Part shown: positions 25,737-53,406 of the stretch, piece by piece
Layout: every line of letters begins with the position of its first letter
How positions within the stretch are numbered: position 1 is the stretch's first letter
DNA from: Humidesulfovibrio sp.
GTDB taxonomy: Bacteria > Desulfobacterota > Desulfovibrionia > Desulfovibrionales > Desulfovibrionaceae
Reading direction: 5' to 3'
DNA: 53,622 bases
Assembly: GCF_031082295.1 (NCBI RefSeq)
Contig: NZ_JAVHLD010000019.1
Location: 1-53,622, forward strand
Made by a program: the position numbers and the translations under genes
The notes under the pieces: model-generated
The model's input: only the letters and a program-made list of their open reading frames with translations
Databases searched by the model: none
What the model was told of the DNA's origin: nothing

Positions 25737-25780
25737 AAAAGAAACAAGCCCCCGGACGCCAGGCGGCATGCGGGGGCTTG
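25737..25780 (-). terminator. Intrinsic terminator of the sigma-28 small-protein unit
   Basis: A perfect 10-base stem (CAAGCCCCCG with CGGGGGCTTG) and 16-base loop are followed on the minus strand by TTTCTTTT. It starts 20 bases beyond the stop of the 188-residue protein gene and closes that transcript. Confidence 0.85.
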
Positions 25781-25799: not shown

Positions 25800-26366
25800 C
25801 TAGCCGTTGACCTTGAGCAGGGTGGGCATCCCCGTCGGGTTCTGGGCCGCGCCGAGAGCCCTCTGAATGTCCTCAACGGTAATGGCGGATGAAGTCGCGC
25901 CTTGGCTGGAGACAGTCGTGAAAGCTTGATTGCCTGCGGCGTTTCCCTGCTGAGCGCTGTTCATCATCGCATTGAAGTTGGAGTTGATCGCCTCTGTGTT
26001 GATGGTCGCACGGCCGGGCTGATTCCCACCGATAAGGTTCCCGATGTTCATGTCGGAGACGTTCACCAGCGAGCCGGTCATCTGCTCCAGCGCCCTGGGC
26101 GCCGCCATGATTTCGGCTGTGGTGGGGGGGGCGTCTTGCGCGCCGAAAATCGTCCCCGCTTTCTGAGTCTCCGCTGCCGCCTGTGGGCTTGCATTGTCAG
26201 GCAGCTTGATCTCGTCTCGTGCCATTTGCTGCAAGCCAGGATCGGTGTTGGTGGACGTTTGATCGCCTGACGTGGTCTTGGCTGGCAGGCTCGGGGGGGT
26301 GAACGCGGTGTTCAGATCCCGCGAGGCGTTCATCGGCATCATGTTGTGACTGATGTTAAGTGACAT
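25800..26366 (-). CDS. Unrecognised 188-residue protein, second gene of a sigma-28 unit
   Basis: I do not recognise this protein. It has 188 residues, no Cys, no signal peptide and no membrane segment. It is rich in Ala, Asn, Gln, Ser and Thr, with a probably disordered first ~75 residues (SLPAKTTSGDQTSTNTD) and a Met-rich start (NMMPMNAS). The C-terminal third (TVEDIQRALGAAQNP) may be helical. Such a composition is common among exported, non-folded or filament-associated proteins. GGAGGAG before the ATG at 26366 is a strong ribosome site. It lies 68 bases downstream of the tandem-repeat protein gene with no promoter of its own seen, so it is probably driven by the sigma-28 promoter at 26853-26879. 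A motility or export role is inference. Confidence 0.7.
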   Translation of the reverse strand: MSLNISHNMMPMNASRDLNTAFTPPSLPAKTTSGDQTSTNTDPGLQQMARDEIKLPDNASPQAAAETQKAGTIFGAQDAPPTTAEIMAAPRALEQMTGSLVNVSDMNIGNLIGGNQPGRATINTEAINSNFNAMMNSAQQGNAAGNQAFTTVSSQGATSSAITVEDIQRALGAAQNPTGMPTLLKVNG

Positions 26367-26434: not shown

Positions 26435-26806
26435 TCAAACCTTGACGTTTGCCAGTGCCCCGATGGCGTCCGCATGGCCGCCAAGGACGGATTTCTGGAA
26501 GTCGTAGCTCTGGGCCATGCCGTTGTCGTGGCCCTGGCCCGAATTCATGTAGTCCAGCGTCTTGGAGACCACGGCGGCTCCGAAGGTCTGCTTGTCCATG
26601 GGCGCGTTGTCGATGGATGAGGAGCCTTGGCCGTTCATGTAGTCCAGGGTTTTGGTCACCACGGCGGCCCCGAAGGTCTGCGTGTCCATGGGCGCGGTGG
26701 CGATGTTTTGCTTCGCCTGCGCGGCCTGTTCGAGCGAGTATGAGTCGGCCCCGGAGTACTGGCTCTGGTCAAAGGCGGAAAATCCGCCGACGGGATCGAT
26801 GGCCAT
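26435..26806 (-). CDS. Tandem-repeat small protein under a sigma-28 promoter, possibly motility-related
   Basis: A 123-residue protein of unknown function with an internal duplication: residues 38-58 and 68-88 are nearly identical (APMD-T/K-QTFGAAVV-T/S-KTLDYMN), spaced exactly 30 residues. No Cys, signal peptide or membrane segment is present. Each repeat (Q..GAAVV.KTLD) loosely resembles the core helix of the short YjfB-like putative motility proteins; that is a weak recollection, not a match. The upstream sequence is a perfect sigma-28 (FliA) promoter, so expression should follow late flagellar genes. AAGGAGG lies upstream of the ATG at 26806. The 188-residue gene follows in the same unit. 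Confidence 0.75.
   Translation of the reverse strand: MAIDPVGGFSAFDQSQYSGADSYSLEQAAQAKQNIATAPMDTQTFGAAVVTKTLDYMNGQGSSSIDNAPMDKQTFGAAVVSKTLDYMNSGQGHDNGMAQSYDFQKSVLGGHADAIGALANVKV
26543..26695 (-). repeat. 90-bp-period coding duplication in the sigma-28 protein gene
   Basis: Two 63-base coding blocks (26633-26695 and 26543-26605) encode the near-identical 21-residue repeats, with the period exactly 90 bases. Only two of 21 residues differ (T/K and T/S), indicating recent duplication or strong constraint. Confidence 0.9.
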
Positions 26807-26852
26807 TTTCGTACCTCCTTGCCTGAAGATTGGATTATGCCTTCTTCGTTTC

Positions 26853-26879
26853 TTATCGGCATATCATTAAGAAACTTTA
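26853..26879 (-). promoter_or_regulatory. Perfect sigma-28 (FliA) promoter
   Basis: On the minus strand TAAAGTTT is followed after exactly 11 bases by GCCGATAA. Both halves are perfect matches to the enterobacterial sigma-28 flagellar consensus with canonical spacing. The -10 ends 46 bases upstream of the ATG of the tandem-repeat protein gene. No other full match was noticed in the window. Confidence 0.9.
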
Positions 26880-33089: not shown

Positions 33090-34310
33090 CTAGGAATCGG
33101 CGCGGGAGGCGGCATGTTCGGCGCGGAAACAGTAGCCGACAGGCTGGGTGCGGCCTTCGATGAGGGCCATGAGGGTCTTCTGGTTTTCAATGGATGAGAG
33201 CTGGAACGAGAGCCCCATCTGGTAGTTGCCGTCGCCGGTGCTGCTGACGCGGCTCACCTGCGCGTTGACCGGAAGCCGGATGCCAAGGACGTTGTCCGTG
33301 AGCATCAGCTCGATGTTCGTGGCCCGAGGCACTGGCCTGTCGGCAATGCAGAGCAGGCCGCCGAAGCTGATGTCGCGGGCCATGGCCTGGATTTGGCTCT
33401 TGGCGTCGCGCAGGCGCAACGGCAGCGGGTCGGACAGGGTGTAGCGGGTCTGGCTGCGCTGGTGGTCGCTGAAGGGTCGGACGCTGTTGCGCTTGACCTT
33501 GGCCTGGTAGAGGGCCTGATCGGCCCGCTGAACCAGGGAGGCCATGTCCAGGGCATCGGTGGGGAAGCAGGCAAGCCCGATGCTCACGGTTATTGGGGGC
33601 AGTTCCTGCCCGGCGAAGACGATGGCGTGGTGCTCCATCGCCTGGCGGATGCGTTCGGCAACGCCAACAGCCTCCTCACGTGTGGTCTGCGGCAGGATGA
33701 GCGCGAATTCCTCGCCGCCGTAGCGCACAATGGTGTCGAGCAGGCGAGCGGTGTCGCCGAGTTCATGGGCGATGTCGCGCAGGGCCTGGTCTCCGGCGGA
33801 GTGGCCATAGGTGTCGTTGAAGTCCTTGAAGTGGTCAAGGTCGAGCATGAGCAGGGTGAACGGTTGGCCGAAGCGGCGAAAGCGTTCCATCTCCTTCGGA
33901 ACTTCCTGGTTGAAGGCGCGACGGTTGGAGAGCCCGGTCAGTTCGTCCTTGTAGGCGCTTTCCTCCCGCTGGCGAAGGAGGTTCACCTCCACCAGGATGG
34001 GATCGCTCAGCATGGGGTTCACCTGCATGAAGTAGTCGCACATGGCGGTGACCAGGCTGATGTTGCGGCCCAGGGCTTGGCACAGGCCTTCCTGGTGGTC
34101 GAGCACATCCAGCATGGTGTCCTTGGCTTCACCGGGAGAGAGCTCCAGGCGGGTCAAGCGGTACAGGGCTTCGGTGTAGATTTCGTCGCCAGCATCCCGC
34201 GCAAGACTTTCCCACAGCTGTCGGCTCAGGGTGCAATTGTTCCTGGCGCGCTTGAGAAGTTCATTCAAACGCCCGGAAGAATCCTTAAGCAGCTCGCGCG
34301 TACTGGCCAT
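33090..34310 (-). CDS. Diguanylate cyclase with C-terminal PilZ domain
   Basis: A 406-residue cytoplasmic protein. Residues 1-115 are helical and unrecognised. The GGDEF domain (about 118-278) starts KDELTGLSNRRAFN and has the active site GGEEF at 198-202. The inhibitory I-site RLLD (189-192) lies exactly five residues before it, so product inhibition is expected. A PilZ domain follows: RSQTR (285-289) and ARDISFGG (DxSxxG, 313-318), a c-di-GMP receptor. It should make c-di-GMP and also bind it. AT-rich upstream DNA holds a strong promoter and a palindrome. The ribosome site is weak. Confidence 0.9.
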   Translation of the reverse strand: MASTRELLKDSSGRLNELLKRARNNCTLSRQLWESLARDAGDEIYTEALYRLTRLELSPGEAKDTMLDVLDHQEGLCQALGRNISLVTAMCDYFMQVNPMLSDPILVEVNLLRQREESAYKDELTGLSNRRAFNQEVPKEMERFRRFGQPFTLLMLDLDHFKDFNDTYGHSAGDQALRDIAHELGDTARLLDTIVRYGGEEFALILPQTTREEAVGVAERIRQAMEHHAIVFAGQELPPITVSIGLACFPTDALDMASLVQRADQALYQAKVKRNSVRPFSDHQRSQTRYTLSDPLPLRLRDAKSQIQAMARDISFGGLLCIADRPVPRATNIELMLTDNVLGIRLPVNAQVSRVSSTGDGNYQMGLSFQLSSIENQKTLMALIEGRTQPVGYCFRAEHAASRADS

Positions 34311-51669: not shown

Positions 51670-53406
51670 ATGTTTGCCCTCAAGGATTGCTTCAAGGTCT
51701 ACACCATGGACCAGGACAAGGCCTCTCCACCCGCTGAAACCGTCGCCAAGGTCAAGGCCGTGCTCGAGCAAAAATGTCCCGGCGTGCTGGAAAAAACCGA
51801 CCGCGTGGACACCGGACGCCTCGGCATCCCGGTGTTCTTGAGTATCTGCGGGCCGGAGGCGCGTGCCGTGATGCCCACGCGCAAGCAGATGGGCAAGGGC
51901 GCCAGTCCCGCCCAGGCCGAAGCCTCGGCCCTTATGGAGCTGGTGGAGCGCTTCAGCTACTTCAGCTTCTGGGCTGACGAGTCGAACTTCGTGCGCTGCA
52001 CCTGGTCCGAGGCTGTGCAGCGTTTCGGCGACCAGCTCATGGACATCCGCGAGATTTGCTCCTCCGTTGGCGACGAACTCTCGCCAGAAGGCGCAAGACG
52101 CGTCATGGACCTAGTGCGTTGGCGTTTCTGCCCGGCGCTGAACGTGGCCACGGGGAAAACCTGCGTGTTGCCGCTCGACTGGTTCAAGACGCTGAACGAG
52201 TTCAACGGCTCCTCCGCGGGCAACACCAGCGAGGAGTCCGTGCTGCAGGGCGCCTGCGAGCTGGTGGAGCGCCATGTCTGCGCCGTCATCGACCGCAGCG
52301 ATCCGACTCTGCCCACCATCAGCCAGGACAACCTGGCCGACCCGGTGCTGCGCGAGCTGTGCGAGGCTTTCCGCAAGAATGGCATCATGCTTGTGCTGAA
52401 GGACTTCTCCCTCGGCATGCCCGTGCCGACCGTCGGCGCGTTGGCCTTTGACCCCCGGACCTTTCCGGGCTTGAGCGAGATCGTCTACACTGCCGGAACA
52501 GCTGCCTCGCCGGTAAAGGCCGCAGTGCGCGCCGTCACCGAGATCGCGCAGCTTGCGGGCGACTTTGAGACCGGGCGCGTGTACGAGGCGTCTGGCCTGC
52601 GCAAGTTCACGGACCCCGGGCAGTTCGAGTGGCTCCTGGCCGGACCTGTGGTCGAGCTGGACAGCCTGCCCGACGTCGAGGACAACAATATCCGCGTGGA
52701 GCTCGCCCGCCTGGCCGATGGACTGGGCGCCAAAGGCTACAGCCTGTACTCCGTGGACACCACACGCGCCGACATCCAGGTGCCCGCCAACTACAACCTC
52801 GTGCCGGGCTTCGACTTCCGCGAGCGTACCGTGAACCGCAGCCTGGGCCTGTTTGTGGGCCGCAAGCTGGCGGAGGAGGCCGAGGTGCCGGAAGCCGAGG
52901 CAGGGCTTGCCGTGCTGGCGGAGGTTGCTCCCACTGCCTACTACCTGCCGTTCTTTCAGGCCCTGCTGGCGCTGCGCAAGGGCGACCTCGACCTGGCCGC
53001 CGAGCGCTTTGCCCTGGCCGAGCCCCTGCAGCCTGGTTCGGACGAACGCGCCCTGTGCGCCTTCTACCAGGCCTATGCGCTCTCCCAGGACAGCCGCTGG
53101 GAGGACTGCGTTCCGCATCTCGACAGGGCCATTTTGCTGGACCCGGATGTGAAGGAGTACTTCAACCTGCGCGGCGTGGCCAGGTTCAAGGCCGGTTCAT
53201 ACGAACTGGCGAAGGATGATTTCCACGCCGTGTTGGCGCTTGATTCCGGGTCGGCACCCGATCTGGCCAATCTTGGCCTGTGCCACAAGTTCCTCGGGCA
53301 GCGGCAGGAGGCTCTGGAATGCCTGGAGGCGGCGCTGCGCCTGGATCCCGGCCTGGACTACGCGCGCAAGCACCTGGAGGAACTTCTCCGGGGCAAGCGG
53401 GAATAA
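51670..53406 (+). CDS. YcaO-domain protein fused to TPR repeats, next to dsrC
   Basis: A 578-residue protein. Residues ~20-405 are a YcaO ATP-dependent cyclodehydratase/amide-activation domain with the three nucleotide-site helices GKGASPAQAEASALMELVER (E90, E93), LQGACELVERH (E197, E200) and AAVRAVTEIAQ (E291, Q294). Residues ~425-575 form tetratricopeptide repeats (ALLALRKGDLDLAAERF, GVARFKAGSYELAKDDF, GLCHKFLGQRQEALECL). YcaO enzymes activate peptide amides for azoline, amidine or thioamide formation. The C-terminal PxPxP of azoline YcaOs is absent. A dsrC/tusE gene follows 161 bases downstream, a known pairing of unknown function. GGAG before 51670 fixes the start. Confidence 0.85.
   Translation: MFALKDCFKVYTMDQDKASPPAETVAKVKAVLEQKCPGVLEKTDRVDTGRLGIPVFLSICGPEARAVMPTRKQMGKGASPAQAEASALMELVERFSYFSFWADESNFVRCTWSEAVQRFGDQLMDIREICSSVGDELSPEGARRVMDLVRWRFCPALNVATGKTCVLPLDWFKTLNEFNGSSAGNTSEESVLQGACELVERHVCAVIDRSDPTLPTISQDNLADPVLRELCEAFRKNGIMLVLKDFSLGMPVPTVGALAFDPRTFPGLSEIVYTAGTAASPVKAAVRAVTEIAQLAGDFETGRVYEASGLRKFTDPGQFEWLLAGPVVELDSLPDVEDNNIRVELARLADGLGAKGYSLYSVDTTRADIQVPANYNLVPGFDFRERTVNRSLGLFVGRKLAEEAEVPEAEAGLAVLAEVAPTAYYLPFFQALLALRKGDLDLAAERFALAEPLQPGSDERALCAFYQAYALSQDSRWEDCVPHLDRAILLDPDVKEYFNLRGVARFKAGSYELAKDDFHAVLALDSGSAPDLANLGLCHKFLGQRQEALECLEAALRLDPGLDYARKHLEELLRGKRE

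Follow-up and report, generated by a model that had tools for sequence, protein, structure and literature searches.

The locus studied here, from a bacterium that probably reduces sulfate, lies on the minus strand of a 53,622-base window (the whole stretch of DNA that was analysed) and is centred on an ORF of 123 amino acids (26435-26806), which starts with ATG and carries a ribosome-binding site, AAGGAGG. Upstream of this ORF, the minus-strand letters of positions 26853-26879, TAAAGTTTCTTAATGATATGCCGATAA, match exactly the consensus of a sigma-28 (FliA) type promoter, TAAAGTTT-N11-GCCGATAA, with an 11-base spacer. The -10 element is separated from the ATG by 46 nt, which is a plausible distance for the promoter of a sigma-28-dependent late gene. 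A divergent copy, GGCATAAT, of a leader element that recurs in the family (RGCGTYRT, see below) lies between promoter and ORF, at 26834-26841 on the same strand. A second minus-strand ORF, of 188 amino acids (25800-26366), starts 68 nt downstream of the first and has a flagellin-like N-terminus; it is followed by a probable intrinsic terminator (25737-25779, minus strand). A biotin carboxylase gene lies downstream of this unit, and an S1-domain protein is encoded divergently upstream, followed by an ABC ATPase.

The first-pass annotation had described the window as free of any recognisable flagellar gene. This held for the 20 ORFs that we scanned with Pfam, among the 43 ORFs listed, none of which matched a flagellar family; however, the description had overlooked the 188-aa ORF. 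Elsewhere in the window, we observed a protein with a GGDEF plus a PilZ domain (33090-34310, minus strand) and a protein with a YcaO domain and C-terminal TPR repeats (51670-53406, plus strand).

The exact sigma-28 consensus reported at 26853-26879 was confirmed. Indeed, 100 shuffles of the 53,622-base window were nearly free of such matches, with a mean of 0.05 matches at three mismatches or fewer (5 of the 100 shuffles had one match each). It had been proposed that the genome be scanned for the promoter and the result compared with the flagellin genes. Throughout the genome (3,451,090 bases, or 3.45 Mb, in 73 contigs), the exact sequence occurred only in the window. When three mismatches or fewer were allowed, 12 sites were found versus 8 with a reversed control pattern, so the three-mismatch sites are mostly at chance level. 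The sole site with two mismatches (C73:98293-98319) lies upstream of a flagellin gene. The genome has four Flagellin_N matches, and upstream sites were compared for three of these flagellin genes: in the other two, the best site reached 10 and 11 of 16 positions and was not comparable. The genome also encodes FliA itself (G000:C13:40174-40824), with a score over the TIGR02479 cut-off. A three-mismatch site near fliA (C13:41856) was rejected as a likely chance match because it lies inside an ORF.

The repeat protein and the ORF that follows it

The 123-residue protein contains two near-identical 21-residue repeats spaced by 30 residues, exactly as annotated initially. Repeat 1 covers residues 38-58 (APMDTQTFGAAVVTKTLDYMN; 26633-26695, minus strand) and repeat 2 residues 68-88 (APMDKQTFGAAVVSKTLDYMN; 26543-26605, minus strand); both follow the pattern APMDxQTFGAAVVxKTLDYMN and are identical at 19/21 amino acids and 56/63 nucleotides. 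Homologues with a single repeat align with repeat 2. Two AlphaFold2 runs on the protein gave mean pLDDT values of 51.4 and 53.8 and poor pTM values of 0.20 and 0.27. In both runs, helices were predicted at residues 42-57, at residues 72-88 and from residue 96/97 to residue 108/116, with an additional one at 25-29 in the first run only; these low-confidence helices coincide with both repeats and with a YDFQK segment. The repeats showed no excess of amphipathicity, 21-23% of shuffles being as high or higher, and a search of solved structures returned a single match at E 0.72, which was disregarded.

The N-terminus of the 188-aa ORF, MSLNISHNMMPMNASRDLN, resembles the sequence MSLVINHNLMAMNASRNLN of a flagellin from G010. 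In a set of 59 genomes, the ORF matched, outside itself, only the N-termini of two flagellins (E 2e-4 and 9e-4). Pairwise comparisons with five flagellins, each expressed as the score over the maximum of 200 shuffles, gave 95/61, 84/59, 79/69, 65/64 and 49/80: the first two are thus clearly above chance, the third is modestly and the fourth barely so, and the fifth is not. A PF00669 domain was not found in the ORF, which had no Pfam match at E ≤ 10. Its product contains no Cys, Trp or Tyr.

The terminator was recognised by eye after the 188-aa ORF, as a 10-pair stem with a 16-base loop and a T-rich tail. An automated scan picked up just a smaller, internal stem of this hairpin (25763-25751), and the scan's 3 sites compare with 1.8 in shuffles; it listed no terminator-like site between the repeat gene and the 188-aa ORF. 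In three relatives from the same genus (L074, L076 and L077), the biotin carboxylase gene comes directly after the repeat gene with no 188-aa ORF in between, and a terminator-like hairpin was apparent by eye after the repeat gene, the script flagging two of the three. In a fourth locus (L079), the hairpin is also present after the repeat gene and is followed by the contig end. More generally, a terminator-like hairpin occurred within 150 nt in 23/65 family members versus 19/1143 random windows. Because a hairpin follows the 188-aa ORF, none was listed between the two genes and the 188-aa ORF is missing at that place in the three relatives, the repeat gene and the 188-aa ORF probably form one two-gene transcript, as judged from sequence, which would be an addition in this species.

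Distribution of the family and of its upstream site

Homologues of the repeat protein were found by protein search in 35 of the 59 genomes. Searching with a profile detected them in 136 of 247 genomes from the order Desulfovibrionales and in 9 of 395 genomes of a phylum-wide sample. Named genomes, when scanned, yielded 40 loci, most of them titled Desulfovibrionales. The carriers outside the order were Desulfarculus or Desulfarculales records (L106, L107 and L111) and a contig titled Candidatus Methylomirabilis (L110); the latter homologue may reflect a binning error or a transfer. The homologue set used below comprises 106 loci and 67 distinct proteins and represents part of the family, as the matches in the order supplied only their best 30 loci. 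Start codons were chosen by script or by hand and are uncertain for a few homologues (L113, L015 and L020); two loci with no ORF by motif (L121 and L122) were left out.

The family has no name in Pfam (29 + 14 members scanned) or in NCBIfam (29 members), and the matches of its members to these collections were weak and, apart from YjfB and DUF5858, did not converge on any one family. The literature on YjfB, Desulfovibrio FliA, Feds, cysteine-poor flagellar proteins and the genus, searched by topic and not by sequence, contained no title or abstract that names it. Aligned members share the core FGAxVVxKTLDxMN, followed by YDFQKxVL and a C-terminus that often contains GxG. The gene product had been described as a tandem-repeat protein, but the duplication is not characteristic of the family: by a crude motif count, 27 of the 67 members have one copy of the core and 40 have two. 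One- and two-copy forms both occur within the genus of the window, where repeat copy number varies among species; in the same genus, a 72-aa member (L028) is devoid of the YDFQK segment.

In the family, the residues S, T, N, Q, G and D are abundant, and C, W, P, H, R and E are scarce. Only 2 Cys were counted in 6403 residues, where 211 long ORFs from these loci would predict 85, and 65/67 members are Cys-free versus 41/145 small ORFs with a ribosome-binding site, these control ORFs coming from a simple script and possibly including false ones. The composition is flagellin-like, 15 flagellins containing 7 Cys in 5224 residues. Short disordered proteins are also expected to be depleted in Cys; the composition fits an exported flagellar protein but would also suit short disordered proteins in general.

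We then scored the region upstream of the 67 distinct homologues, retaining for each the best match to the 16 promoter positions within 150 nt of the chosen start. Scores of at least 13/16 were obtained for 32/67 homologues versus 20/3811 windows of 150 nt drawn at random from these loci, and scores of at least 12/16 for 40/67 versus 37/3811; the homologues are related to each other, so that these counts overstate independence. For 38/67, the site both scored at least 12 and lay 36-60 nt from the ATG. Moreover, a model-free count of 7-mers upstream of all 67 ranked AAGTTTT, CCTAAAG and GCCGATA as the top three. In the 38 high-scoring sites, the first T and the A at the fourth base of the -35 element are invariant, as are C, G and A of CCGA, although this conservation is partly built in by selection on score. 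The site is absent in 29/67 homologues by the strict rule (at least 12, 36-60 nt) and in 23/67 by a loose rule. No recognisable site was found in Nitratidesulfovibrio, Solidesulfovibrio, genus g25, Desulfarculus, Halodesulfovibrio and others, and none that was convincing in the carriers outside the order (the Desulfarculus-type records and L110). Upstream of members scoring 12 or less, we found no convincing match to sigma-54 promoters.

The leader element RGCGTYRT starts 8-13 nt past the -10 element in 31 of the 44 members that have a site under a loose definition and occurs in 1.9% of 6197 random 40-nt windows, the pattern having been derived post hoc from the same sequences as those counted. 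The copy in the window mismatches this pattern, and the leader of the flagellin gene in C73 of the same genome does not match it. The element may be part of the initial transcribed region of the promoter or an RNA-level control site.

Gene neighbours were checked at 14 site-bearing loci, which represent about ten different gene contexts. The S1 protein adjoins the family gene in the window and in L104, from the same genus. The neighbours are a DeoC-type aldolase and a methylase in L093, an iron-sulfur/CCG protein in L094, a menaquinone enzyme in L096, a DNA glycosylase and a solute-binding protein in L105, a receiver-domain protein in L108, an Rrf2 regulator and a MotA-type proton channel (L109:1504-2448) in L109, a desulfoferrodoxin in L112 and an inositol monophosphatase in L113. 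Synteny does not explain the presence of the site, given the number of contexts (about ten) in which it is retained. In the four other loci (L081, L082, L086 and L103), a MazG gene was observed directly upstream of the family gene. All neighbour scans together (E limits of 1e-10 in a first round and 1e-6 in three later rounds) covered 40 proteins from 21 loci, and 27 of these proteins were assigned to a family. Some ORFs of the first round had probably been read in a wrong frame, and the one from L093 was replaced. A MotA-type neighbour was seen only once, so that linkage to flagellar genes is rare. A hybrid ORF in L111 contains a chemoreceptor-type sensor domain.

The presence of the family was compared with that of FliA within the order. 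FliA was over cut-off in 135/136 family-positive versus 84/111 family-negative genomes (Fisher p 1e-9, relatedness ignored), FliA being absent from 27/111 of the latter. The single family-positive genome without FliA, G631, is 89% complete. In the 59-genome set, all 6 genomes without FliA over cut-off were also without the family gene. The genus g34 has no genome among the 136 carriers. The 84 FliA-positive genomes without the family indicate that the gene is dispensable for flagella, and on the basis of gene content the family is an accessory rather than a core flagellar component. Homologues lacking both the site and a link to motile lineages, which would have spoken against a role in motility, were not found within the order, given the near-constant presence of FliA in carriers. 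D. vulgaris is now placed in Nitratidesulfovibrio, where the sigma-28 site is absent upstream of the homologues L088 and L090. A fliA deletion in D. vulgaris is described, in an excerpt of PMC3944678, as impairing both the formation of flagella and the halos produced by motility.

A probable late flagellar gene and competing readings

The initial suggestion that the gene is a late member of the motility regulon is supported by comparison, not experiment: the site recurs, and nearly all carriers examined also have FliA. The full explanation that we favour, with a probability of roughly 60%, is that of a FliA-controlled late (class III) flagellar accessory gene whose product docks on the flagellar system. 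FliA RNA polymerase, freed at completion of the hook-basal body, would transcribe the gene together with the distant flagellin gene, a FliA dependence that we infer from the promoter. The product would be a small, largely unfolded, cysteine-free protein, in which the FGAxVVxKTLDxMN and YDFQKxVL segments would form short helices, as modelled, that dock on a putative flagellar partner, for which the export apparatus and the growing filament are the likeliest candidates. With such docking, export of the protein, or action at export, would be probable, and duplication of the repeat would alter docking valency. Taken by themselves, the parts of this explanation differ in strength: it is very likely that the gene belongs to the late flagellar regulon, but we are inclined to doubt somewhat that the protein is exported, even though export is the likeliest way for it to act. 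A bolder proposal is that the family consists of flagellum-exported repeat proteins delivered by a portable cassette (the sigma-28 site plus RGCGTYRT), here paired with a second export substrate bearing a borrowed flagellin N-terminus; we put this forward very tentatively.

It may be objected that a single consensus match proves little and that 23 to 29 of the 67 homologues have no site. A promoter match by chance, in front of a gene unrelated to motility, is nevertheless extremely improbable in view of the recurrence of the site over lineages and contexts and of the co-occurrence of the family with FliA. A different function within the late regulon deserves more attention: the protein could stay in the cytoplasm as a late regulator or adaptor, a disordered protein binding FliA, a chaperone or a chemotaxis protein via its repeat helices in an anti-sigma-like manner. 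FlgM, the anti-sigma-28 factor, is likewise small, disordered and flagellar; the family is small, disordered in low-confidence models and linked to FliA, and no signal peptide was seen by eye in the sequences inspected. However, neither the FlgM domain (PF04316) nor a chemotaxis family was among the matches of 29 members (Pfam at E ≤ 10, NCBIfam at E ≤ 1), and the Cys-poor, flagellin-like composition also argues against a cytoplasmic regulator, which we consider rather unlikely.

The first-pass annotation had also suggested a loose resemblance of the repeat to YjfB (PF14070), and the family could be a very distant homologue, the order's counterpart of that motility protein. Membership of the YjfB family did not withstand the HMM search: the best member reached 15.5 bits versus a curated cut-off of 27, whereas a real YjfB, in L123, scores 42.8 bits. 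Matches at E ≤ 10 were obtained for 5/29 members in one alignment, where YjfB was the second commonest sub-threshold Pfam match and fell on the FGAAVVxKTLDxMN segment, but for 0/14 in the single-repeat alignment; DUF5858 gave sub-threshold scores about equal to those of YjfB in more members (9/29). A comparison of the family with YjfB by hhalign returned no match, although the YjfB side was a single sequence. PF14070 was over cut-off in none of the 59 genomes, including that of the window, and further YjfB sequences numbered none in plasmids and one in 297 phylum genomes, the same one being found in 2 class genomes. In favour of kinship, the proteins are of similar size and some members begin with MD(I/V), like the YjfB of L123. 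Weighing these points, we regard common descent with YjfB as improbable.

Comparison with known systems

Late flagellar regulons still contain small proteins of unknown job, and a family without a Pfam or NCBIfam name is present in more than half of the order's genomes (136/247). With one promoter and one small gene, the locus offers a testable handle on such proteins. YjfB is similar to the family in being a small protein tied to sigma-28; a passage of PMC11607428 calls it uncharacterised and places it in a sub-module with sigma-28. The similarity in sequence is weak, and the single YjfB compared (L123) shows neither the duplicated segment nor the YDFQKxVL motif of the family. It is possible that the family works like YjfB. 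By analogy, the closest functional analogue is the group of Campylobacter Feds, although these belong to another lineage and the likeness is one of description, secretion being only predicted in our case. The Feds depend on sigma-28 for production and secretion, as stated in an excerpt of PMC5223770. According to the same source, Feds and FlaC are sigma-28-dependent or flagellin-like proteins that the flagellum secretes. The repeat gene resembles theirs in being sigma-28-linked and outside the structural set, and the neighbouring 188-aa ORF, with its flagellin-like N-terminus, recalls FlaC.
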